The notes beneath the pieces are model-generated. The model was not told the origin of the DNA, did no database searches, and saw only the letters and a program-made list of their open reading frames with translations. 64,000 nucleotides of DNA, taken from positions 26,658-90,657 of IMG/VR virus record IMGVR_UViG_3300036792_000096. One strand, 5' to 3'. Position 1 is the stretch's first letter. Every line of letters begins with the position of its first letter. A program made the position numbers and the translations under genes. Positions 27,931-61,593 of this stretch are shown piece by piece. Origin of the DNA: a virus.

Positions 27931-29019
27931 TCAGGCTGGGGTCGGCTTCGGCTGGCCCCAGCCGGGCATGTCCCGCGGGTCGTAGATCACGCCGAGGCTT
28001 CCGGGCTCAGACCCCATCCGTCGCTCCTTACGGGCGCGGGCCTCACGCCACTCCTCCGGCGTCCGGTTGTACTTCTCGTTGTTGCAGGGTTGGCACGCAC
28101 CCGTCACGTTCCAGCGCGTGTGGGAACCCCCGCGGGCCAAGGGAACGATGTGCTCGACAACGAGGGGTGGCCGGTGCAGATGGCAGTACGAGCAGACGCC
28201 GACCTGTTCGGCCATCATCTCTGCGACCTGCTCGCCGGTCAGGTCATTCACGGGGGCTCCGAGCTCGAGTGCCCTGCGCTGGTTGGTGTAGTTCCGGTAC
28301 CGCTCTGGGTCCTTTGCCTTACCTTTGCGGTACGCTGCCGCTCCCTTGCCCGCTTGCTGAAAACGGATCTGGCGCAGGGCCTTGAGCTGAGGATTCTCTC
28401 CCATCGCTGGCATATGCGGCAGCACGCCTTGCTCACGTCGGCGCACCTTCAGAGCGCCCTTGGTGCAGGCCTTGCATACTGGCGAGGGACCCTCGTAGTT
28501 GTCCCGTTTGTTCCTCACGATGTAGTAGTCGGTGAGCGGCTTCCACTTGCCGCAGAGGAAACAGACCTGACCCTCCACGCTCTCCACGGCCGTGACCTCG
28601 CGGAAGCGCCGGATCTCCATGCCAGCAGCCCGGCGGGCCTTTTCACCAGCCACCTTCATCCCAGCAGTAGTGCAGTCCTTGCAGCGGTAATCCGTGATCC
28701 CGTCCTCTCGTGGATAGAACTCGCTGACCGGCTTCACCTGATCGCAGGTCCGGCACAACCGTTGCCCGTCACCCACCACGACCTCCCGAGAAGCGTCAAG
28801 GTGGGCGAAGTGGTGTTCGGGGCAGCGTCCTCGCATGTAGGCAGGAACGGAGCATCCGGGCTCTTGGCAAGGCAACGCATCCGGTCCCACCGATTCCAGG
28901 AACCGCTGCGTCTTGGTAGCCCGCATGTCGTGCATCCCGCAGAGTCCGTGCGTGCGGGAGGGCTTGTCGCACGAGGGATGACCGCAGATTCCGCGGCTCC
29001 CTTTGATACCCTTGGGCAT
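27931..29019 (-). CDS. HNH endonuclease with several zinc knuckles
   Basis: A 362-residue protein on the opposite strand to all its neighbours. Zinc pairs include CGHPSCDKPSRTHGLCGMH at the start, CRTCDQVKPVSEFY, CFLCGKWKPLTDYY and CKACTKG. The C-terminal HNH domain is intact: CSYCHLHRPPLVVEHIVPLA, then WNVTGACQPCNNEKYNRTPE. Size, multiple DNA-binding knuckles and antisense insertion immediately after the capsid gene suggest a free-standing homing endonuclease. A role in packaging is less likely at this position. Confidence 0.85.
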   Translation of the reverse strand: MPKGIKGSRGICGHPSCDKPSRTHGLCGMHDMRATKTQRFLESVGPDALPCQEPGCSVPAYMRGRCPEHHFAHLDASREVVVGDGQRLCRTCDQVKPVSEFYPREDGITDYRCKDCTTAGMKVAGEKARRAAGMEIRRFREVTAVESVEGQVCFLCGKWKPLTDYYIVRNKRDNYEGPSPVCKACTKGALKVRRREQGVLPHMPAMGENPQLKALRQIRFQQAGKGAAAYRKGKAKDPERYRNYTNQRRALELGAPVNDLTGEQVAEMMAEQVGVCSYCHLHRPPLVVEHIVPLARGGSHTRWNVTGACQPCNNEKYNRTPEEWREARARKERRMGSEPGSLGVIYDPRDMPGWGQPKPTPA

Positions 29020-29138
29020 GTCGCTGACCTCTCGCTAGGTTGCGGCCGGGTCCCCGGGTGTCTCACCACCGCGGGGGCCTTCTCTTCTCCCACCATTCTA
29101 CGGATGGGTACCGACACCCAGAGCCGGGAAATGGCCGC

Positions 29139-30137
29139 ATGAAAGAACCCTCAGAAATGCCCCGGCGCATCGCCCTGTGGGGAAACTTCGGAGTGCCTTG
29201 GACGACGGAAACTCACGTCGCTCTGTCTCTCGAATCCCTCGGCCACACCGTCATCCGGCTGCAAGAGGGGACGGTACGGGCGGTGGACTTCGCTGAGCGA
29301 GTCATCGCCGAGGGATGCTCACTGGCAATCTGGATTCAGACGTACGGTTTAGCCGTCACCGGTGGCACCGCAGAGGAACGCTACGGCGCGCTAGCCCGAC
29401 TCCGGGAGGCCGGCATCCCGACCATGGGGTTTCACTTGGACAGGTTCTGGGATGTCAAGGACGGCCGAGCAGACCGAATCCCCACGGAGCCCTTCTTCCG
29501 CACGGACCTGCTTGCCACGGCCGACGAGGGTGGGGGGCGGTGGCAGGAACAGGGGATCAACGCCGTGTGGTCCCCGCCAGGCATCTACCACGGCGAGGCG
29601 GTGCGAGGGACGCCTCGCCGTGAGTACCGCAGCCCCGTCGTCTTCGTCGGCAGTTGGCGGGGGGTCTACCACCCCGAGTGGACGCACCGCCGGGAACTCG
29701 TCCAGCATCTCCAAACCCGCTGGCGCCATGAGTGCGCCTTCTGGCCGCGAGGCGAAGCCGTCCGTGGCCAAAACCTGATCGACCTCTACGCCTCCGTCGA
29801 TATCGTGGTGGGGGATTCGTTCATGACGCCCGGTTCCTACGCTTTCCACTCAGATCGAATTCCGGAGACTTTGGGTAGAGGGGCGTTTTTGGTCCATCCG
29901 TACAATCCGGGCTTGGAGACTCTGTACGAGGACGGCAAGCACCTCCGCTACTGGCCGCTCGGGGACTGGGCAGAACTGGACCGGCTCATCCGCTACTACC
30001 TAGACCACCCCGAGGAGCGGCAGGCCATCGCCGACGCCGGCCAGCGACACGTACAGGAGTCCCACACCTACAGAGAACGCATGAAGCGCCTGCTGCCGAT
30101 GGCTCTCGCCCTCAAGCCCGCTGAGGCTGCGGTATGA
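29139..30137 (+). CDS. glycosyltransferase (GT-B, Glyco_trans_1_2-like)
   Basis: A 332-residue protein from ATG 29139 (ATG 29157 possible). The N-terminal half has a Rossmann-like start (RRIALWGNFGVPWTTETHVA). The C-terminal half matches the family of phage and CgeB-like glycosyltransferases: LIDLYASVDIVVGDSF, SDRIPETLGRGAFLVHPYNP, and the terminal DHPEERQAIADAGQRHVQES. It transfers a sugar from a nucleotide donor. First gene of an accessory island between capsid and tail genes; see the island finding. Confidence 0.8.
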   Translation: MKEPSEMPRRIALWGNFGVPWTTETHVALSLESLGHTVIRLQEGTVRAVDFAERVIAEGCSLAIWIQTYGLAVTGGTAEERYGALARLREAGIPTMGFHLDRFWDVKDGRADRIPTEPFFRTDLLATADEGGGRWQEQGINAVWSPPGIYHGEAVRGTPRREYRSPVVFVGSWRGVYHPEWTHRRELVQHLQTRWRHECAFWPRGEAVRGQNLIDLYASVDIVVGDSFMTPGSYAFHSDRIPETLGRGAFLVHPYNPGLETLYEDGKHLRYWPLGDWAELDRLIRYYLDHPEERQAIADAGQRHVQESHTYRERMKRLLPMALALKPAEAAV

Positions 30138-30787
30138 GCGTGGATTGGGTCACGGAGGCCCTCACGGACGCCGAGCGGGAGCGGGCCTACTGGGACGCCA
30201 CAGCCGCATCCGAGAACGTCTGGGGCGAGCTGTGGTCGATTCCCGGCATGGGGTGGGAAGAGGGGATCGAAGCGTGTCTCGCCCAGATTGAGCCGATCCT
30301 CCACGGCTGCTCGGCTGGGCGCGTGCTTGAGCTCGGGTGCGGCATCGGGCGCCTTCTGCTCCCGCTGGCCGAGCACTGGTCTGACATGTCCTTCATCGGC
30401 GTGGACTGCTCCGCGGCCCTGCTGACGAAGGCACGGGCGGCAACGAAGAGTGCCGGGCTCGGCAATGTCCGCTACATCGCCGGGGATGGCCGCAACCTCC
30501 CCCGCTCCCTCCCGGCGCGGTTCCAGGCGGCGTACTCCGTGCTGACCTTCCAGCACGTCCCGCCCGAGGCGCAGAGTTCCTACCTCAGCCAGATCGCAGC
30601 CAAGCTTGACGCTGGGGGCCTCCTGCGCCTGCAGTTCGTCCAGGCCGACATCGACCACTTCCTCTCGCATGGCATACCGCCCGAGACGATGGCGCAGTGG
30701 TGCGCTGAGGCGGGCCTGACGGTCGTCGCGCTGGACCGGGGCGTCATTGACGAGTCGTGGGCATGGATCACGGCGACGAAACTGTGA
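30134..30787 (+). CDS. SAM-dependent methyltransferase (class I)
   Basis: A 217-residue methyltransferase. Motif I RVLELGCGIGRLLLPLAE is at 63-80, then FIGVDCSAALLTKARAA, a GDGRNLPR acidic loop and FQAAYSVLTFQHVPPEAQ, the standard Methyltransf_11/25 order. Substrate unknown; in this setting a sugar or glycan intermediate is likely. ATG overlaps the upstream glycosyltransferase stop. Confidence 0.85.
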   Translation: MSVDWVTEALTDAERERAYWDATAASENVWGELWSIPGMGWEEGIEACLAQIEPILHGCSAGRVLELGCGIGRLLLPLAEHWSDMSFIGVDCSAALLTKARAATKSAGLGNVRYIAGDGRNLPRSLPARFQAAYSVLTFQHVPPEAQSSYLSQIAAKLDAGGLLRLQFVQADIDHFLSHGIPPETMAQWCAEAGLTVVALDRGVIDESWAWITATKL

Positions 30788-30981
30788 GCGGCGACATTAT
30801 GGACGACAGCATTCGCAGGGTTCGCTTCGAGGCACTGAAGTTGGCTGTGGGACGCGCAGACGAGCACCACAACGCTGACCAAGTCGTCCGTGCCGCGAAG
30901 GTGTTCGCATCGTTCATCGGTAACGGATCATCGCCGCTTGATGACGAAGACTCGGCAGAGACCGAGGAACCCAAGCCGTGA
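30784..30981 (+). CDS. hypothetical small protein in glycosylation island
   Basis: A 65-residue protein from GTG 30784, overlapping the methyltransferase stop (ATG 30799 is an alternative). Helical (RVRFEALKLAVGRADEHHNA, VVRAAKVFASFIG) with an acidic tail. No recognised family. Confidence 0.5.
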   Translation: MSGDIMDDSIRRVRFEALKLAVGRADEHHNADQVVRAAKVFASFIGNGSSPLDDEDSAETEEPKP

Positions 30982-31811
30982 CCGTCCAGACCCCGCACCC
31001 CAACGCGATGATCCACTGGCCCCGGATCGAATGCCTCCGCGGCCACGAGACGCACGACTCGGGATCGTTCCGCATCCGCCTCGGCGGTTCCACGGGCTAC
31101 CACGACTTCCCTCCGATCCCACAGCGCTTCGCCCGCGACTTCCACATGGAACTGTTCGACTGGACGAAGTACCGAGAGGTGGGGCCGTGGTGCCCCGGGG
31201 CTGGCGTGGAGTCCGAGGCCATCGCCGAGCTCGGTGTCTGGGAACCACGGGAGACCATCGTTGCCCTGACCGTCTTCGAGTCGGCCGATCCGGGCTCGCT
31301 GTGCGTGGACTTCGGGGCGCATGTCGGCTGGTACTCGCTCCTCGCCGCCTCCAGCGGTCTCGAGGTGCTGGCGTGGGAGTGCGACCCGGAGCCCCTCCGG
31401 CTGCTGCGCACGTCGGCCAACCTGAACGGCTGGAAGATCCGCACCCGCGGGACCCGCATCGGGGCGGACACGAAGCCTCTCCCGAAGACTGCGATTCGGT
31501 TGGCGAAACTGGACATCGAGGGAGCCGAGGAGCATGCGATCCGGATCCTTGGACCCTCCATCCGGGCCGGCCTCGTGGACCACATTCTCATGGAGGTCTC
31601 ACCCGTGTTCGCCGACTACTACCCGGCCCTAGTCCTCTCCCTGATCTCCAGAGGCTATGAGGCGTACCGGTTCCACGACAAGGCCCTCCCGCCACACCCA
31701 CTTGAGGAACTGCCACGGGATCTGATCCCGCTCATGCGGAACGTGGAGGCCGAGGTGGCGTCGTGGCATCAGGAGAGTGTCTGGTTCAAGCGGGTGGGGG
31801 CCTCGTGGTGA
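30978..31811 (+). CDS. FkbM-family methyltransferase
   Basis: A 277-residue protein with the FkbM pattern: VDFGAHVGWYSLLAASSG at 110-127, WECDPEPLRLLRTSANLNGW, and the diagnostic KLDIEGAEEHAIRILGP near 177. FkbM enzymes usually O-methylate sugars or glycan ends. GTG start overlaps the previous stop. Within this island it probably caps a phage-made glycan. Confidence 0.85.
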   Translation: MTVQTPHPNAMIHWPRIECLRGHETHDSGSFRIRLGGSTGYHDFPPIPQRFARDFHMELFDWTKYREVGPWCPGAGVESEAIAELGVWEPRETIVALTVFESADPGSLCVDFGAHVGWYSLLAASSGLEVLAWECDPEPLRLLRTSANLNGWKIRTRGTRIGADTKPLPKTAIRLAKLDIEGAEEHAIRILGPSIRAGLVDHILMEVSPVFADYYPALVLSLISRGYEAYRFHDKALPPHPLEELPRDLIPLMRNVEAEVASWHQESVWFKRVGASW

Positions 31812-32023
31812 GCGATCAGTCTGCGTGCCTCGGCAAGCGGTACCGAGACCCCATCACGGAGTACGAGGGCATCGCCACAGCACGGGTGGAGTACCTCGGC
31901 GGGGGTCGCGTCCAGATCCTCTTGGAGCGCGCTCGGTCGGATGGCAACCCGCAGGAGCACTACTTCTACGAGTCCCGGCTTGAACTCGTCACTCCGAAAC
32001 CGCCGATGGGGATCGGATCATGA
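31808..32023 (+). CDS. hypothetical small beta-rich protein
   Basis: A 71-residue protein from GTG 31808, overlapping the FkbM stop. Beta-rich (ATARVEYLGGGRVQILLERA, HYFYESRLELVTP), perhaps a small barrel. Flanked by glycan genes, but no domain is recognised. Confidence 0.5.
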   Translation: MSDQSACLGKRYRDPITEYEGIATARVEYLGGGRVQILLERARSDGNPQEHYFYESRLELVTPKPPMGIGS

Positions 32024-33777
32024 CCACCATTCCCGTGATCTACGTCTCGCGGCATGAGGGTATCTTGTCCCATCTGTACGCAGATATGGGCCTGCTGGAA
32101 TCCATCCTCGCTGGCACCGTCTGGAACCCGCCTGGGGCGTTCACCTTTGAGCACTACGTAGACGTGGGTCGGCCCGGCTCCGCCGATCCCGACGCCTTCC
32201 CGGCCGTGGCTGGCGCCGTTGTCATGGTCCCCGCCCGCCACCACACCTCTCCCGAAGATGTCCAGTGGCTGCTGGCCCAACTTGACCGCCTGTCGTGGTA
32301 TGTGACCGTCCTATGTGGTGACGAGGAATGGGCATTTCCGTGGCAGCGCATCCCCCGCTCCGAGCACCGGAAGGTGTGGGTCATGCAGCCCCGGCCAGAG
32401 CATGCCGGGCGCGTGGACGGGATGATCCCCGGTGGCTGGTATCCGGGGACGCGGGAGGGCATCAGTGTTGCTCAGGCCCGTCGGACAGCCTTGAAGCTCG
32501 ACGCATCCGATGAGCGCTACTGGGATGTTTTCTTCGCCGGTCAAGTCACCCACAGACGTCGCGAGGAATGCGCTGCCGTGCTGAGGGCGATGGACCCCCA
32601 GAGGCGGTTCCTCTACGAAACGAAGGGCTATCTCCAAGGGATGGCGCAGGACGAATACATGGCTCTCCTCTCCTCGGCCAAGGTAGTCCCCTGCCCGTCC
32701 GGGCCCTACACGGTAGACACCGCCCGGCCCTTGGAAGCGCTCGAGGCGGCCTGCGTGCCTGTCGTGGACACCCTGACGCCCCGGGGTGACGACTGGGACT
32801 ACTGGGGTCTTGTGTTCGGCCCTGATTGCCCCCTGCGGCGGATCCGGGATTGGGAGACCTTCCCCAAGGTGCTCACCGAGGAGTTGGCCGACTGGCCCAA
32901 CAACTCGAATCGTGTGTTCGCTTGGTGGCAGGGCTGGAAGCGGAGGATCACCCACCAGTTGCACGACGACATCGCCAGCGCATCGGGGGTTCCCCTAGTT
33001 CTTGACGGACCCGACGCCCTCGTGACGGTCCTCATTACCACGTCTCCCGCACCGTTGCACCCCTCGACCGCCCATCTTGAGGAGACCGTCGCGGCGGTGC
33101 GGGAGCAACTCCCTAACGCGGAGATCGTCATCGCCTGCGATGGGGTACGGCCGGAGTTGGCAGAGCGCGCTGCGGACTACGGCGAGTATCTCCGTCGGGT
33201 GCTGTGGCTGTGTAACTTCGAGTGGCGCAACGTGGTGCCGTTCGTCGCTGACGAGTGGCTACATCAGGCCGAGCTCACCCGCCGTGCTCTGAGCCTCGTG
33301 CGGTCCCCGCTCATGTTTTTCGTGGAACACGACCGGCCGCCCGTGGGACGGATCGACTGGCCGGGGCTCTGCGCCGTGGTGGGGTCGGGGGAGATCGACA
33401 TGGTCCGACTGCACGCCGAGGAAAGCATCCATCCCGAGCAGATGCACCTCATGCTTGGTGCCCAGACGCCGATCAGCGGAGTCCCGCTGCTCCGGACGGC
33501 GGCGTGGTGGCAACACCCGCACCTCTGCCGCACGGAGTGGTACCGGGGCATCCTCGCCGAGCACTTCCCGCCCGGAAGCCGGACGTTCATCGAAGACCGC
33601 CTCTACCAGCTTGCCGAGAATGACTTCTTCGACCACGGCCCCGGTTCGTGGCAGCGGTGGAAGCTCGCCATCTACTGCCCGCCGGGGAGCATCCTCCGCA
33701 GCCGTCACCTCAACAGCCGCAGCGATGCTCCCAAGGGCGAGATTTGGTTCGGCGAGACGGCGGAGGTGCCCGTATGA
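32020..33777 (+). CDS. two-domain glycosyltransferase-like protein
   Basis: A 585-residue protein. The first 330 residues resemble an exostosin/GT-B-like domain: RYWDVFFAGQVTHRRREECA, LQGMAQDEYMALLSSAKVVP, then PSGPYTVDTARPLEALEAAC with the acidic acceptor-donor loop. From about 335 a second, GT-A-like domain begins (ALVTVLITTSPAPLHPSTAH, NAEIVIACDGVRPELAERAA) and includes FVEHDRPPVG in place of a DxD. Two fused transferases could build a disaccharide. Assignment by pattern; substrates unknown. Confidence 0.65.
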   Translation: MTTIPVIYVSRHEGILSHLYADMGLLESILAGTVWNPPGAFTFEHYVDVGRPGSADPDAFPAVAGAVVMVPARHHTSPEDVQWLLAQLDRLSWYVTVLCGDEEWAFPWQRIPRSEHRKVWVMQPRPEHAGRVDGMIPGGWYPGTREGISVAQARRTALKLDASDERYWDVFFAGQVTHRRREECAAVLRAMDPQRRFLYETKGYLQGMAQDEYMALLSSAKVVPCPSGPYTVDTARPLEALEAACVPVVDTLTPRGDDWDYWGLVFGPDCPLRRIRDWETFPKVLTEELADWPNNSNRVFAWWQGWKRRITHQLHDDIASASGVPLVLDGPDALVTVLITTSPAPLHPSTAHLEETVAAVREQLPNAEIVIACDGVRPELAERAADYGEYLRRVLWLCNFEWRNVVPFVADEWLHQAELTRRALSLVRSPLMFFVEHDRPPVGRIDWPGLCAVVGSGEIDMVRLHAEESIHPEQMHLMLGAQTPISGVPLLRTAAWWQHPHLCRTEWYRGILAEHFPPGSRTFIEDRLYQLAENDFFDHGPGSWQRWKLAIYCPPGSILRSRHLNSRSDAPKGEIWFGETAEVPV

Positions 33778-34868
33778 CCGGGCCCCGCTGCGCTCTGCTG
33801 GTGCGTTCGGATCATAGGGGCCTCGGATATCAGTCCCACGGTTACTACCAGCACCTCTCGCCGGTCAAAACCCTCCACGTCCACATGACCTCGAACCTTG
33901 GGACATGGACACCCTACGCAGAGCACCGGGAGGCGTGGTATCCCGACGTGCGCTCAGCCAACTATGACGGCCACACGGGGCGGCTGGACGACGAGGCTGC
34001 TATTCGCTGGCTGCTGGCTGACGTGGATGTCCTGCTCTCGGCCGAGACCTTCTACGATTTCCGGGTCATCGGCTGGGCGCGGGAAGCGGGCGTCAAGACG
34101 GTCCTAGTCGGGAATCCGGAATTCCTCAGACCCGAAGTTCTGGTCAGTCCTCCTGACGTCCTCGTGATGCCCTCCCGCTGGCGGCTGGACACCATCCCCA
34201 ACGCCGTCCACCTCCCCCAGCCCGTGGACCGCAGCGTGTTCGCCTTCACGCCCCGCCCGCTGGTTCCTGACCGGCTCCGGTTCCTGCACGTCGTGGGCCA
34301 CCGGGCGGCGAGGGACCGGGCTGGGACGGATCTCGTGCTCGACTGCATCCGCTTCCTGCGCCACCGCATCGACCTCACCATCCGTTGTCAGGGCTCGCTC
34401 TCGGCCCCTCAGCAGTTGCTCCTACGGGGACTCAGGCGCCACCAGATCCCAACGGTGCTGTTGGGCGACGTGGACGATCCCCGGGCGCTGTACGAGGGCT
34501 ACGACGTGCTCCTGGCGCCGAGGAGGTATGGGGGCCTCTCGCTCACGCTCAACGAGGCAACTTCCTGCGGGCTGGCAATCATCGCCACGGACCGGGAGCC
34601 GGAACGCTTCGCCCTGCCGGCGGAGGCCCTCGTACCAGCCTACCGGGGGCGGGACGTGCAGTTCCAGGGCGGGACCTTCACGCTGGACGATGCCAACCCT
34701 CGGGACTTGGCCGAGGCCATCGACCGGCTCGTGGACGACCCCGCCGCGGTGGCCCGGCTCTCCGCGGCCTCAGACGCCTATGGGGAGTCCATCTCGTGGG
34801 AAACGCTGGCCCCGAAGTGGCGAGCGCTCCTTGAGCGGGCCACGACCATGACGGGAGTGGGACCGTGA
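33774..34868 (+). CDS. GT4-like glycosyltransferase
   Basis: A 364-residue GT-B protein. The C-terminal nucleotide-sugar domain shows ILTIRCQ-type beta strands, YEGYDVLLAPRRYGGLSLTL (the E/G loop of GT4 enzymes), EATSCGLAIIATDREPERFA and DPRDLAEAIDRLVDDPAAVA-like ending helices. ATG overlaps the upstream stop. It probably extends the glycan made by the preceding transferases. Confidence 0.78.
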   Translation: MTGPRCALLVRSDHRGLGYQSHGYYQHLSPVKTLHVHMTSNLGTWTPYAEHREAWYPDVRSANYDGHTGRLDDEAAIRWLLADVDVLLSAETFYDFRVIGWAREAGVKTVLVGNPEFLRPEVLVSPPDVLVMPSRWRLDTIPNAVHLPQPVDRSVFAFTPRPLVPDRLRFLHVVGHRAARDRAGTDLVLDCIRFLRHRIDLTIRCQGSLSAPQQLLLRGLRRHQIPTVLLGDVDDPRALYEGYDVLLAPRRYGGLSLTLNEATSCGLAIIATDREPERFALPAEALVPAYRGRDVQFQGGTFTLDDANPRDLAEAIDRLVDDPAAVARLSAASDAYGESISWETLAPKWRALLERATTMTGVGP

Positions 34869-35896
34869 TCGACGCCCTCGCTTCGCAACCCCACTACTTG
34901 AGGCATCTGTATCCCGTGTGGCAGGCGCTTCCAGAGGAGTACCGGGGGACGCTCTACCTGACCGGGCGAGCCTCGTGGGAGGCACCGTTCTACGACACCG
35001 GCCGGGTCTACAGCGGCCTCTTCCAGCGCCCCGGTCCCCGCGTACTCGTGGCCTCGCAGACCGACTACCGGCAGGTCAGCACGGGCCGGCGGGTCATCTA
35101 CATGAACCATGGCGCCGGCCAGAGCTACGGCGGAGACCCCGACCCGGCCGTGTCCCGGGACGCCTCCTATGCCGGCGGGGACGGCCAGGACCGCACCGAT
35201 CTCTTCCTCGTTCCCGGCCCGCATCCTGCGCAACGATGCCGGGAGCGCTATCCGGACATACCCGTGGTGGAGATCGGGTGCCCGGCACTAGACTCGTGGC
35301 TTAACCGGCCGGCGCGCCGGGAGCCACATGAGAAGCCGGTCGTTGCGCTCGCCTTCCAGCGCGCCACCCGCCACGGGGACTACCCGCTCTGCCCGGAGCA
35401 CGTCTCGGCGCTGCCCCACTACCTCTCGGCGCTGCCCGCTCTGATGGAGCGCTTCGAGGTGCTCGGCCACGGCCACCCGCGCGCTAAGGCCGGGCTCGAG
35501 GCGGTCTACGGCCCGCTCGGCATCCCGTGGGTGGACTGGGAAACGGTGATGCTCACGGCCGACGTTCTGTGCGTCGACAACAGCTCCATTGGGTTCGAGG
35601 CAGCCGCCATCGGCTTACCTGTCATTTGGCTGAACGCTCCGTGGTACCGACGAGAGATCGACCACGGGCTGCGCTTTTGGGGCACCGCTGGTGTGGGCAT
35701 GGAGGTAGACGAGCCGGCCGCTCTCGTCCCGACCGTTGAGACCGCCCTCCGAATCTGGCTAGGGTGGTACGGACTCGCACCAGCCGATCAGCAACTTTCG
35801 TATGTCTACACGCGCCTCGACGGGCACTGCGCCCAACGAGGCGCTGCGGCCATCGTCGCTCTGGACGCGGCCGAGCTCGCCGAGGTGCCCTCGTGA
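34865..35896 (+). CDS. CDP-glycerol glycerophosphotransferase-like protein
   Basis: A 343-residue protein from GTG 34865. The GT-B-like C-terminal part carries ADVLCVDNSSIGFEAAAIGL followed by PVIWLNAPWYRREIDHG, the D-N/Y-S-S-x-x-E motif of TagB/TagF-type glycerophosphotransferases, and YMNHGAGQSYGG in the N-terminal half replaces the usual H-G region. Known relatives add glycerol-phosphate or act as glycosyltransferases in teichoic-acid pathways. In a phage it may decorate the virion or alter host wall polymer. Confidence 0.7.
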   Translation: MIDALASQPHYLRHLYPVWQALPEEYRGTLYLTGRASWEAPFYDTGRVYSGLFQRPGPRVLVASQTDYRQVSTGRRVIYMNHGAGQSYGGDPDPAVSRDASYAGGDGQDRTDLFLVPGPHPAQRCRERYPDIPVVEIGCPALDSWLNRPARREPHEKPVVALAFQRATRHGDYPLCPEHVSALPHYLSALPALMERFEVLGHGHPRAKAGLEAVYGPLGIPWVDWETVMLTADVLCVDNSSIGFEAAAIGLPVIWLNAPWYRREIDHGLRFWGTAGVGMEVDEPAALVPTVETALRIWLGWYGLAPADQQLSYVYTRLDGHCAQRGAAAIVALDAAELAEVPS

Positions 35897-57900: not shown

Positions 57901-57972
57901 CGAAGTCTAAAGGGAGGTGACGCCCACGCCGGTTCCCCAGCCCACCACAGCCCCTCTCCCGGGCTACACGTT

Positions 57973-58007
57973 ACAGAGCCCCCTGCCTTCGCGGCAGGGG
58001 GCTCTGT
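57973..58007. terminator. strong bidirectional terminator
   Basis: A perfect 15-bp stem, 57973-57987 with 57993-58007, and a 5-base TTCGC loop, followed by TCGTTG. It lies between the rightward late operon and the converging leftward operon and should stop both. The whole stretch 57901-58030 is otherwise non-coding. Confidence 0.88.
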
Positions 58008-58030
58008 TCGTTGCGGGTTGTGAGGAGTTA

Positions 58031-58711
58031 TTAGCTGCCCATCAGGGACAGCAGCGAGTCTGCGATGACCTGCGGGTCGGTCTCGGAACCGAAGGTGACG
58101 ACACGGAAGTTGTCGGGGTGATGTGCCTCCACCTTCTTGTAGGCGTTGAAGGTCTGGTCGTGCTCGGGACCGTAGCCGATGACGGCCATGACGACGTAGA
58201 CGGTCCCGCGGAGCTTCTCCATCTCGGCGACGAAGTCCTGGTAGTCGGCGGCTTCCCCGTCGGTGATGACGACAGCCAGAATGGCTGGACGCTCGTCCGC
58301 GGGCCGAGAACCGAACTCGTCCTTGTAGGTCTCGACCAGCACTTCCCAGCCGGGGACGATGTAGGTGCCCCCGCCCCACTCGATGGCACCCCACTTGTCG
58401 CGGACGTTCTCTGAGGAGAGATCGTCGATGCTGACCGCGTCCTCGGGCCCGCTGAAGAGAATCGTCATGACGCCCCCGGCGTCCTCCCCTGCCGCAGCTT
58501 CCTTCTCGGCTTGGGAGTCCTTGCCTTCCAGTGCCGCGACGAGAGCGCTGATGGCCTCCCCGATGACTTCGCGCCGCTGGATGTGGGAGTGCTCGGCCGC
58601 CTTGTAGGACATGGAGCCCGAGGTGTCGATCAGGAACATGGGTTCGGTCTCGGTGCCTGACGGCGCGACTGGACTCAGGTCGTTCTTGCTCGGTTCTGTG
58701 GTCACTGCCAT
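58031..58711 (-). CDS. von Willebrand factor A domain protein
   Basis: A 226-residue vWA protein. The metal-dependent adhesion motif LIDTSGSMS is at 27-35 (D29, S31, S33), GGGTYIVPGWEVLVETYKDE supplies the threonine position and VVITDGEAADY the distal Asp. No membrane segment. Cytosolic TerY/YfbK-type vWA proteins are metal-dependent scaffolds. Here it follows a PspA-like gene, a pairing also known from bacterial stress operons. AGAAGGGGAGAA precedes the ATG. Confidence 0.85.
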   Translation of the reverse strand: MAVTTEPSKNDLSPVAPSGTETEPMFLIDTSGSMSYKAAEHSHIQRREVIGEAISALVAALEGKDSQAEKEAAAGEDAGGVMTILFSGPEDAVSIDDLSSENVRDKWGAIEWGGGTYIVPGWEVLVETYKDEFGSRPADERPAILAVVITDGEAADYQDFVAEMEKLRGTVYVVMAVIGYGPEHDQTFNAYKKVEAHHPDNFRVVTFGSETDPQVIADSLLSLMGS

Positions 58712-58745
58712 GGTGCGTTCTCCCCTTCTGGATAGGTTGGTGCTG

Positions 58746-59534
58746 CTAACTGAAGAGTGCGTCCGTTCCCTTCACCGCCGCGTCCCGCGGCTCGTCTCGC
58801 TTCCCCCCTTCTGGTAGTGCGTCGCGGACTCTGGTGGCCTTAACCGGCTGTGGGGCTTCGTCTGCCCACCCCGCCATCAGCTCGTCGGCCGCGCCGGTCT
58901 GGGCAAGCGTGCTGTCGTCTAGCCCCATAGCTGCGGTGTCGAGAGCGTGCAGTTGCCCAGAGGCCCGCTCCTTGGCGAGACCCTGTTGGACCCGCTCTCG
59001 GACCTCGTTCAGGGAAGGTGTGGCCCGGGCTGCCATGCTGGCGATGTCCTCGTTGGCCCGGTTCAGGTTGTGCTGGACGGCCTGCTGGTCGACCTGGGCG
59101 TGCAGGGTCTTGGCGTCGGCGAGCGCCGCCGCCAGCTTCTCGCCGTTGACCCTGAAGGCTTCCTGAGCGTCGTCTGCGGCCTTCTTGGCGTCGTGGTAGG
59201 TCTGCTCCTCGATCGACAGCCGTTCCCTCGCTGCGGCCAGTTGCCGGGCGATGCCTGCCGCTGCGTCGCGGTGCCCCGCGGAGAAGGCTGCCTTGCCCTG
59301 ACGGTCCAGCCGGTCCACCAGGGCCAGATCCCTCTCGTAGGCGCCCTTGGCGGTCTCGGCCTGCCCCATCACGGTCGCGACGGCGTTCTCAAGCCGGTCG
59401 TGATCCTCTTGGTATTGCCGGATCGTCGTATCGATCACGGCGTGTGGATCAGCGTGGGCCTCGAGCGCCCTCGTGGCGCCGGCCTTCGCCAGGTCGTTCT
59501 CTCGCTGGAAAATCTCTCGCCATTTGAACGGCAT
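58746..59534 (-). CDS. PspA/Vipp1 (IM30)-family protein
   Basis: A 262-residue, almost wholly helical protein. It opens with a short amphipathic helix (PFKWREIFQRENDLAKAGAT), then a long hairpin coiled coil (TTIRQYQEDHDRLENAVATV, AKGAYERDLALVDRLDRQGK, LAAARERLSIEEQTYHDAKK) and further helices, as in PspA/Vipp1. Such proteins polymerise on membranes like ESCRT-III and protect the proton gradient. A GAGGAGGTAGACG site precedes the ATG. Few phages are known to encode one; with vWA and SLOG neighbours it suggests membrane-stress control. Confidence 0.8.
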   Translation of the reverse strand: MPFKWREIFQRENDLAKAGATRALEAHADPHAVIDTTIRQYQEDHDRLENAVATVMGQAETAKGAYERDLALVDRLDRQGKAAFSAGHRDAAAGIARQLAAARERLSIEEQTYHDAKKAADDAQEAFRVNGEKLAAALADAKTLHAQVDQQAVQHNLNRANEDIASMAARATPSLNEVRERVQQGLAKERASGQLHALDTAAMGLDDSTLAQTGAADELMAGWADEAPQPVKATRVRDALPEGGKRDEPRDAAVKGTDALFS

Positions 59535-59538
59535 TCGT

Positions 59539-60003
59539 CTACCTCCTCTGGGTTGATGGGAGTTCCTCTATTTGCGGGGGCCACAGGATCAGCCCGGCCA
59601 GTTTCCCGGCTGCCTTGGCCTTGCGGACAGTGTCAGCGGTTCCGCGGCTCTTTCTGTCCCAAAAAGCCTGCACATGATCGGCTGCCTCCACAAGTTGCCC
59701 GTTGCGCCAGAACGCGGCAGCAGGGAAGGTGGGGAAGGTCTGCTCAAAGACGTGAACACTCCTTCCCTCAGTGAGCGGACCTGTAGAGATGACTGTGACC
59801 CGCCATACCCCATCGACTTTGATGGGACGCCACGAATGGACGATGAGCCCAGACATTGCCGCCGCACGCTCCGCCTCCTGATCAACCCCTTGGGCCCCGC
59901 CCGAGACCACGACGGAGTCGTTCGGGAGGGTTCGGACGAACGCACGAACGGCGCCCAGATCCCCGTACCCTCGCGAGCCGACGATGGCCCACGTCTCACC
60001 CAT
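59539..60003 (-). CDS. SLOG-family protein (YspA/DprA-like Rossmann fold)
   Basis: A 154-residue protein. TWAIVGSRGYGD at 4-15, then VVVSGGAQGVDQEAERAA at 31-48, is the nucleotide-binding signature of YspA-like SLOG domains (DprA/LOG superfamily); WDRKSRGTADTVRKAKAAGK closes the fold. SLOG domains bind nucleotide-derived ligands and act as sensors or processors in stress and defence systems. Stops 5 bases before the PspA-like gene. ATG 60003 is chosen over the longer antisense-overlapping frame. Confidence 0.82.
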   Translation of the reverse strand: MGETWAIVGSRGYGDLGAVRAFVRTLPNDSVVVSGGAQGVDQEAERAAAMSGLIVHSWRPIKVDGVWRVTVISTGPLTEGRSVHVFEQTFPTFPAAAFWRNGQLVEAADHVQAFWDRKSRGTADTVRKAKAAGKLAGLILWPPQIEELPSTQRR

Positions 60004-60223
60004 GCTTGGGGCCTTTGTGGGCGATGGCGGTGAGGGCGTCGTTCTCCGCTCGCAGGCGTTCCAACTCGGCGTTGGCCTCGTCCAACTCGGCCCGAAGGTG
60101 CTCAATCTCAGCCAGCATTATAGGCGCGTATTTTGCGAACGCTACCGACCACGTCGGGTGCGTTTTCGCAGCAGCAGCCCATAGCGTTACTTCGTCTATT
60201 TCGTCTTGGGAAAGCGGTGCCAT
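59996..60223 (-). CDS. hypothetical coiled-coil protein
   Basis: A 75-residue protein from ATG 60223 (AAAGGGACCCC upstream), overlapping the SLOG gene by 8 bases. The last 35 residues are a strong coiled coil (IEHLRAELDEANAELERLRA). It may link the SLOG or PspA-like proteins; no recognised family. Confidence 0.6.
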   Translation of the reverse strand: MAPLSQDEIDEVTLWAAAAKTHPTWSVAFAKYAPIMLAEIEHLRAELDEANAELERLRAENDALTAIAHKGPKHG

Positions 60224-60257
60224 GGGGTCCCTTTCTGGCATGGTTGGGAACAGCGGT

Positions 60258-60767
60258 CTATCCCACATTCTCGACTCTCCGCAGGCGTTCTATGACGTAC
60301 TGCACGACCATGGAATCATTCGCCTTCCACGGGCGCCCGTCGGATGCCACCCGGGGCCATGCCAGCGTTGCGTTGGGGATCAGACGGGTCAGTTCGGCTC
60401 GGGTCCACATGGCCAGCGCCGTCTTCGTGGTGTGTCCCTGCGGGATCTCGCCACCCTTGCAGCGCGCCATGGAGCCGGGGGGGAGTTCGGGTGGACCCTC
60501 GTCTCGCAGGCGGTTGAGCGCCGACTCGATGCCGATCCCAGCCCGGTTGACCCGCGCTCCCGGGCCGAGCGCCTTGGCTGCCTCCTCAAGCGCCATCGCC
60601 TCGGCTACCGGGGACAGGTGGATCAGGAACGTCCCCTCATCCTCGGTTGGTAGCAGGCCGACAGCTTGAAGGCGCTTCGCGTCCTCGGGGTCCTTCTCGG
60701 CCATGAGCGCTGCAAGGAACTTGACGCCGCTCCAAGGGGAGCGTATCTGGTCGGTTGCTTCTGTCAC
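60258..60767 (-). CDS. hypothetical protein, first gene of PspA-vWA operon
   Basis: A 169-residue protein; GTG 60767 is chosen because AGGAGG lies 5 bases upstream. Mixed alpha/beta (VKFLAALMAEKDPEDAKRLQ, GTFLIHLSPVAEAMALEEAA, WTRAELTRLIPNATLAW). No family recognised. It is divergent from the HTH gene at 60908; a TAGACT box lies upstream but without a good -35. Confidence 0.6.
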   Translation of the reverse strand: MTEATDQIRSPWSGVKFLAALMAEKDPEDAKRLQAVGLLPTEDEGTFLIHLSPVAEAMALEEAAKALGPGARVNRAGIGIESALNRLRDEGPPELPPGSMARCKGGEIPQGHTTKTALAMWTRAELTRLIPNATLAWPRVASDGRPWKANDSMVVQYVIERLRRVENVG

Positions 60768-60907
60768 TCGCACCTCCTAGGCGTTTGCCCGTGAGTCTAG
60801 CAGGCCGTGGATGCTGTGGGGCGGATTGTGTGGTACCTTCTCCCCAGCGGGAACCTGCCAAGGGCGACTAGCGAGCCAAGGTGCCCGGGACGGAAGGGGA
60901 GGCCACA

Positions 60908-61144
60908 TTGACGGAGAACGGTTCACCGAGGTACCTCGTCTCAGGTGAGGCGGCCAAGATGCTCGGTGTCTCGCCGAGAACCGTCGGGCGTTGGGCCGAA
61001 GCGTACGGGCTGCCGTACTTCCTTACGCTCGGGGGTCACAGGCGCTTCCTTGAGGAAACGATCCTCGCACTGCGCGAGGCACTGACGGAGCCGGGGGTGG
61101 GGATCGAGGTGGCTGCGGGTCGGGTTCGGCGAGGACAGGCGTGA
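60908..61144 (+). CDS. MerR-type excisionase-like HTH protein
   Basis: A 78-residue protein. TTG 60908 is preferred to GTG 60881 because AAGGGGAGG lies 5 bases before it. YLVSGEAAKMLGVSPRTVGR, then WAEAYGLPYFLTLGGHRRF is a MerR/BldC/excisionase HTH with a wing. It may control the divergent operon or direct recombination. The non-coding stretch 60768-60907 holds the shared upstream region. Confidence 0.8.
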   Translation: MTENGSPRYLVSGEAAKMLGVSPRTVGRWAEAYGLPYFLTLGGHRRFLEETILALREALTEPGVGIEVAAGRVRRGQA

Positions 61145-61593
61145 AACAGGCCGCGGGGGATCTCTGGCGCTTCCCCTGCGACACCCTCTGCATCACGACC
61201 AACGGCACGCGTAAACACGACGGGCAAGCGGTCATGGGCCGCGGTGTGGCTGCTCAGGCGGCTCAGCGATGGCCGTGGCTGCCACAGGTGCTCGGGGACT
61301 CGCTGGTTGAGCACGGGAACCACGTCGCCGCCCTGTGGAAGCTGTTGGACACTCCGCTTCTCCTGTCATTCCCGGTCAAGCACCATTGGAGGGAGATAGC
61401 CGACTTGGGCCTGATCGTGCGCTCGTGCAGGGAACTCATGCGCCTCGCCGGCAAGCTCGGCCTCGGGCAGATCGCCCTTGTTCGGCCCGGCTGCGGGAAC
61501 GGCGGGCTGTCGTGGAAGGTGGTCGAGCCCCGCATCGCCCCGTTGCTGGATGACCGGGTGACCGTCGTCTACTCGGACGTGGTGGCCAGATGA
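61141..61593 (+). CDS. macro-domain protein
   Basis: A 150-residue single macro domain from GTG 61141. DTLCITTNGTRKHDGQ gives the adenosine-binding beta strand and Asn, AVMGRGVAAQAAQRWP at 30-45 is the phosphate loop (the G-x-G-x-A helix of macro domains), and VRPGCGNGGLSWKVVEP near 115 is the distal ribose loop. Related proteins bind or remove ADP-ribose, from proteins or DNA (DarG type), or hydrolyse ADP-ribose-1-phosphate. In a phage it probably counters a host ADP-ribosylating defence, which is inference. Confidence 0.83.
   Translation: MKQAAGDLWRFPCDTLCITTNGTRKHDGQAVMGRGVAAQAAQRWPWLPQVLGDSLVEHGNHVAALWKLLDTPLLLSFPVKHHWREIADLGLIVRSCRELMRLAGKLGLGQIALVRPGCGNGGLSWKVVEPRIAPLLDDRVTVVYSDVVAR

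Follow-up and report, generated by a model that had tools for sequence, protein, structure and literature searches.

The window analysed here (64,000 nucleotides; bases 26,658–90,657 of an IMG/VR virus record of 90,657 bp, and so its right-hand part) carries near its right end a real and uncommon operon of five leftward genes (58031–60773), in which a predicted PspA/Vipp1 (ESCRT-III) relative is encoded together with a vWA protein and a SLOG-like protein. The best-supported explanation of the operon as a whole, held tentatively, is that it is an accessory operon whose PspA and vWA products would form a scaffold for membrane protection or rival exclusion; that the accessory genes simply cluster by chance is almost as probable, and the sealing of the membrane before lysis is the reading with least support. 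The preliminary description had placed five leftward ORFs here, converging on a lysis region, and had recognised PspA-like, vWA, SLOG and coiled-coil products. All five ORFs are present, and the four assignments are borne out by Pfam and PHROG profiles and, for PspA, by modelling.

Table 1. Positions of the features discussed; numbering is that of the window unless a sequence label (L002, L003, L099) precedes it.
Feature	Position	Strand	Remarks
Operon gene 1, unknown	60258..60773	-	171 aa, GTG start
Operon gene 2, coiled coil	59996..60268	-	90 aa, coiled coil in C-terminal half
Operon gene 3, SLOG	59539..60003	-	154 aa, ATG at 60003, DprA/YAcAr-like
Operon gene 4, PspA/IM30 (ESCRT-III superfamily)	58746..59534	-	262 aa
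Operon gene 5, vWA	58031..58711	-	226 aa, PF00092 and MIDAS
15-bp perfect hairpin	57970..58008	.	probable terminator between convergent transcription units
BldC/MerR-type HTH gene	60881..61144	+	candidate regulator of shared intergenic region; NF033787, PF12728
Macro-domain gene, DarG N-terminal-like	61141..61593	+	operon neighbour; NF048014, PADLOC, PF01661
VirB4	L002:15615-18296		record bases ~15.6-25.9 kb (with the next two)
TrbL/VirB6	L002:18293-19999		
Replic_Relax	L003:5003-5905		
C-5 cytosine methylase with Hint domain	L002:533-3202		
HNH endonuclease	27931-29019		opposite strand within rightward structural region
Glycosyltransferase-/methyltransferase-like gene run	29040-35896		structural block
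PspA, short vWA and Band_7 genes of second contig	L099:6567-11367		within 5 kb

The five genes overlap or almost abut: from the first to the fifth, the junctions measure -11 bp, -8 bp, +4 nt, and +34 nt, the coiled-coil gene thus overlapping the genes on both sides. These tight overlaps, and the 4-nt gap between the SLOG and PspA genes, suggest coordinated expression. All five ORFs have a gene-like pattern of GC content by codon position; Shine-Dalgarno-like sequences precede both the PspA and vWA genes, with AGGAGG ahead of the PspA ATG. Immediately 3′ of the vWA gene, the hairpin has a folding energy of -37.7 kcal/mol against -17.8 (sd 2.6) for shuffles (z = -7.6); part of it is also detected on the + strand, and it separates the operon from the rightward lysis block, which consists of an endolysin-like gene (Rv2525c-type glycoside hydrolase) and several one-TM proteins. 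At the other end, the divergent HTH gene matches NF033787 at 3.8e-13 (below cut-off) and PF12728 at 8.5e-10. No sigma-70-like promoter was seen, which carries little weight for an actinobacterial virus. Accessory cargo with expression separate from that of the late genes would be consistent with this orientation, the insulation, and the divergent candidate regulator.

The virus is an uncultivated tailed one, and its terminase, portal, and major-head genes are inside the window. Left of the window, the record carries genes for VirB4 (AAA_10, 1e-41; Streptomyces-plasmid-like), TrbL/VirB6 (3.6e-8), and Replic_Relax (5.7e-11), and this combination of a conjugation-like module with tailed-phage structural genes may point either to a hybrid of phage and plasmid or to a chimaeric assembly; no integrase, serine recombinase, or ParA was found in the record. 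The host probably belongs to the Actinomycetota, since PspA homologues occur there (the only phylum searched), VirB4 most resembles Streptomyces plasmid proteins, and the HTH protein is BldC-like. Among other features are a C-5 cytosine methylase split by an intein-like Hint domain, an HNH endonuclease gene that may encode a homing endonuclease, and a run of glycosyltransferase- and methyltransferase-like genes between the major head and tail genes.

The fourth gene product matches PF04012 at 3.2e-19, its 69.8 bits lying well above the curated cut-off of 33.9. A single-sequence AlphaFold2 model (mean pLDDT 75.7) places helices at residues 5–26, 30–85, 89–192, 194–202, 208–212, and 215–225, which corresponds to the ESCRT-III-like layout of helix 0, a long helix 1, a hairpin of helices 2+3, and helices 4 and 5. 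When this model was compared with the PDB by Foldseek, the top 13 matches were all Vipp1 or PspA (best E 5.1e-4, probability 1.0), with TM-scores mostly of only 0.4–0.6 and, further down the list, the many unrelated matches that long helices attract. A plain coiled coil lacking the characteristic helices, the outcome that would have told against the preliminary description, is not what is modelled; profile and predicted fold instead identify the protein as a true PspA/Vipp1 relative.

Homologues match at E values up to 0.05 in 81 of 396 Actinomycetota genomes (best 1.2e-9), and the window protein shares with them the PF04012 profile of the Vipp1/PspA branch, the helix layout, and, in an alignment with 17 of them, 20–26% identity and the invariant N-terminal ADP...H...L block. 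It differs in being phage-borne and in two structural respects. Firstly, the conserved histidine lies 40 residues from the hairpin tip rather than 47, and the tip lies 63 residues from the QAKM-like motif rather than 70, so that each arm of the hairpin is exactly one heptad (7+7 residues) shorter than in all 17 homologues; the tip was placed two residues early in two of these, with the total length the same. Because each arm loses one heptad, the register of the hairpin is kept, as is expected of a selected, folding protein.

Secondly, helix 0 is weak. This N-terminal helix is the usual membrane anchor of PspA. Its mean hydrophobicity is 0.10 in the window protein, compared with 0.40–0.73 in 16 of the 17 homologues and 0.11 in the remaining one (L088); its hydrophobic moment, 0.404, is the lowest of the 18 (others 0.417–0.66) and is reached by 19% of shuffles of the first 28 residues. 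In Synechocystis PspA, helix 0 inserts into membranes, and the protein without it forms rods but loses membrane tubulation (PMC12358876). Given the weak helix 0, direct membrane remodelling by the viral protein is not to be assumed. PADLOC JetC matches to the same protein were treated as coiled-coil noise.

The vWA protein passes the PF00092 cut-off (1.1e-5; 26.2 bits against 23.8) and matches phrog_5359 at 2.2e-6. It is acidic (16 K+R, 40 D+E), and its MIDAS is complete (DxSxS as D29-x-S31-x-S33, then T116 and D151), which makes metal-dependent ligand binding plausible. Its profile matches set it apart from the TerF type: PF10138 does not list it at E values up to 1, whereas the vWA protein of actinophage Samisti12 matches that profile at 5.4e-26. 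Judged in the same way, it also stands outside phrog_7371, a vWA family common in phages, whose profile barely detects it (3.4e-5 in a search of four sequences, not significant against a database). The 396 Actinomycetota genomes contain no match to it. Its structural model is poor (pLDDT 52), and the matches of that model, including OatA, were therefore discarded as evidence; they reflect common Rossmann-type arrangements.

The third protein gives significant E values that fall below the Pfam cut-offs, for PF02481 (8.9e-6; 25.5 bits against 29.6) and for PF10686 (2.1e-4; 21.4 against 28.2); it also matches phrog_289 (4.2e-12) and, below cut-off, a DprA model (2.5e-5). It is thus SLOG-like without a firm family. 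With phage SLOG proteins of the YAcAr/DprA type it shares a small SLOG core and the GSRGYG and SGGAQGVDQEAE motifs, and it differs from them in these sub-threshold scores and in its operon company of PspA and vWA. The coiled-coil protein has only generic coiled-coil matches in Pfam, and the first gene product matches nothing in Pfam, PHROG, or NCBIfam. Across the divergent region, the macro protein matches NF048014 (1.8e-15, below the equivalog cut-off), PADLOC DarG (3e-16), and PF01661 (0.0052, below cut-off); no DarT-like neighbour was noticed, and the gene may be an anti-defence gene against ADP-ribosylation. For phages, it has been proposed that YAcAr SLOG and Macro domains produce and remove NAD-derived signals, as ADP-ribose signal toggles (PMC7824862); that the SLOG and macro proteins act as a pair in this virus is conjecture.

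The conserved linkage by which the preliminary description proposed to judge the operon is almost entirely lacking, as the five-gene set was found in no other virus by tblastn, IMG/VR scans, or profile checks. By tblastn, neither PspA nor vWA of the window has a homologue in 50,697 phage records (for vWA also at E values up to 10) or in 72,556 plasmids, and peptide-pattern scans returned nothing from IMG/VR (PspA, vWA) or from GTDB genomes (PspA). An alignment-led scan of 2.9 million IMG/VR contigs, a collection from which the window's own record was possibly left out, yielded a single PspA contig, IMGVR_UViG_3300050821_012817 (L099). An independent scan used a degenerate DNA pattern built on the N-terminal block of PspA; as a control, this pattern picks up the window itself together with 14 of the 20 bacterial PspA loci, and from IMG/VR it recovered only this contig and one false match (L125), where there is no PspA-like ORF. 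In IMG/VR, a PspA of this kind is very seldom encoded by a phage.

The second contig, which bears portal-, prohead protease/capsid-, and terminase-like ORFs (judged by eye), encodes a PspA of the same subfamily (PF04012, 1.8e-43) with a short vWA gene about 0.8 kb away. Co-occurrence of PspA and vWA therefore recurs in one other phage, but this vWA belongs to the widespread phrog_7371 family and is on the opposite strand, with another ORF between the divergent genes; a Band_7 flotillin is also present, and the 16.7 kb searched contain no homologue of the SLOG or coiled-coil proteins. The phrog_7371 family is widespread in actinophages and is recorded as of unknown function. Short vWA genes of this type occur in 215 phage records; the PspA profile found no PspA in the DNA around them in 17 further IMG/VR contigs, and none is annotated beside them in four named phages. 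Because this family mostly lacks PspA in the neighbourhoods examined, the linkage on the second contig is suggestive rather than proof. Actinophages Samisti12 and Sixama each have a vWA gene and a band-7 membrane protein gene no more than about 5 kb apart; Samisti12 has no PF04012 match, and neither does Acinetobacter phage ME3, one of whose proteins is named PspA/IM30 in UniProt.

In bacteria, a solute-binding-vWA gene lies close to PspA at about eight of 20 Actinomycetota loci, and three of four such genes checked by Pfam pass the vWA cut-off. This bacterial protein differs from the window vWA and is probably extracytoplasmic. Several of the loci adjoin a solute-binding-vWA or MurJ gene, which the window PspA does not; the main text of one comparative-genomics paper on the PSP system makes no mention of vWA.

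Published precedents exist among phages. Phage Ter modules with TelA and TerF-vWA have been proposed to build sub-membrane structures against superinfection (PMC7824862), and a terD-pspA pair is known from huge (Jug) phages (PMC12363816). The operon resembles these jumbo-phage systems (TerD, TerC, TerF-vWA, TelA) and the Jug pair in combining accessory vWA and membrane-associated scaffold genes for stress or exclusion; it differs in pairing PspA with a short generic vWA and SLOG, without TerD. As TerD (PF02342) has no match in the 90.7-kb record, which may be a fragment, this is not a Ter operon proper. The claim that such a set is unusual in a phage is accordingly softened: PspA of this kind is indeed very rare, but related phage systems are published and phage SLOG genes are ordinary.

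On the tentatively preferred explanation, the operon would be a moron-type unit carried by a tailed phage, or phage-plasmid, of actinobacteria, and its expression would probably be separate from that of the late lysis genes. The phage-adapted PspA would form polymers lining the membrane from the inside, either by itself or in mixture with the PspA of the host, and the vWA protein, which carries the MIDAS, would bind it as a metal-dependent adaptor; the resulting sub-membrane scaffold would limit membrane damage or exclude rival DNA during infection or carriage, and the SLOG and divergent macro proteins might bind or process an NAD/ADP-ribose-type signal. Superinfection exclusion or a response to alarm signals, both raised earlier, are possible outcomes. 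This explanation is supported by the overlapping arrangement of the genes in one direction and the single strong hairpin at their end, the family and fold of PspA, its compensated shortening, the complete MIDAS, the second phage cluster, the bacterial loci, and the phage precedents. It is weakened by a helix 0 that is the weakest of 18, by the lack of TerD, by the five-gene set not having been found in any other virus, and by the fact that, both on the second phage contig and at the bacterial loci, the vWA protein near PspA is of another family.

The SLOG gene may also simply be an unrelated common phage gene, which counts against the scaffold and leads to its closest rival, namely that the SLOG, coiled-coil, and first genes have nothing but a transcript in common with PspA–vWA. 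This somewhat less probable reading accords with the commonness of SLOG-type genes in phages (for example the DprA-like gene of Samisti12), with the frequency of short vWA genes, around which the 17 further contigs show no PspA, and with the lack of a second genome sharing the set; the coordinated expression suggested by the tight spacing, and the recurrence of vWA near PspA on another phage contig and at bacterial loci, speak against it. Rather unlikely is a decoy function, whereby the phage PspA would mix into host PspA assemblies or titrate PspA partners and so damp the envelope-stress response. Retention of the polymerising core and C-terminal helices alongside a feeble helix 0 is what such a decoy would look like, but one bacterial homologue is almost as weak, so that low amphipathicity may still work, and co-assembly at the observed identity with an inferred host's PspA is uncertain. 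Less likely again is a dedicated viral module in which the MIDAS vWA would control an ESCRT-III polymer adapted to the virus, in response to an NAD-derived signal of the SLOG and macro proteins, shutting out rival phages or plasmids or blunting host suicide responses. A lysis-timing device, in which PspA would maintain the proton motive force until the holin triggers, is very improbable, as the adjoining endolysin-like and one-TM genes lie on the other strand beyond a strong hairpin, the membrane anchor is weak, and nothing links the operon to the late phase; the earlier suggestion that it keeps the membrane sealed before lysis thus gains no specific support.

Phage-encoded ESCRT-III/PspA proteins have, to our knowledge, hardly been described. 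With a shortened viral PspA and a vWA partner for it, one could test directly if phages construct scaffolds beneath the membrane or subvert them; the pair would also allow the dispensability of helix 0 for such scaffolds to be probed.
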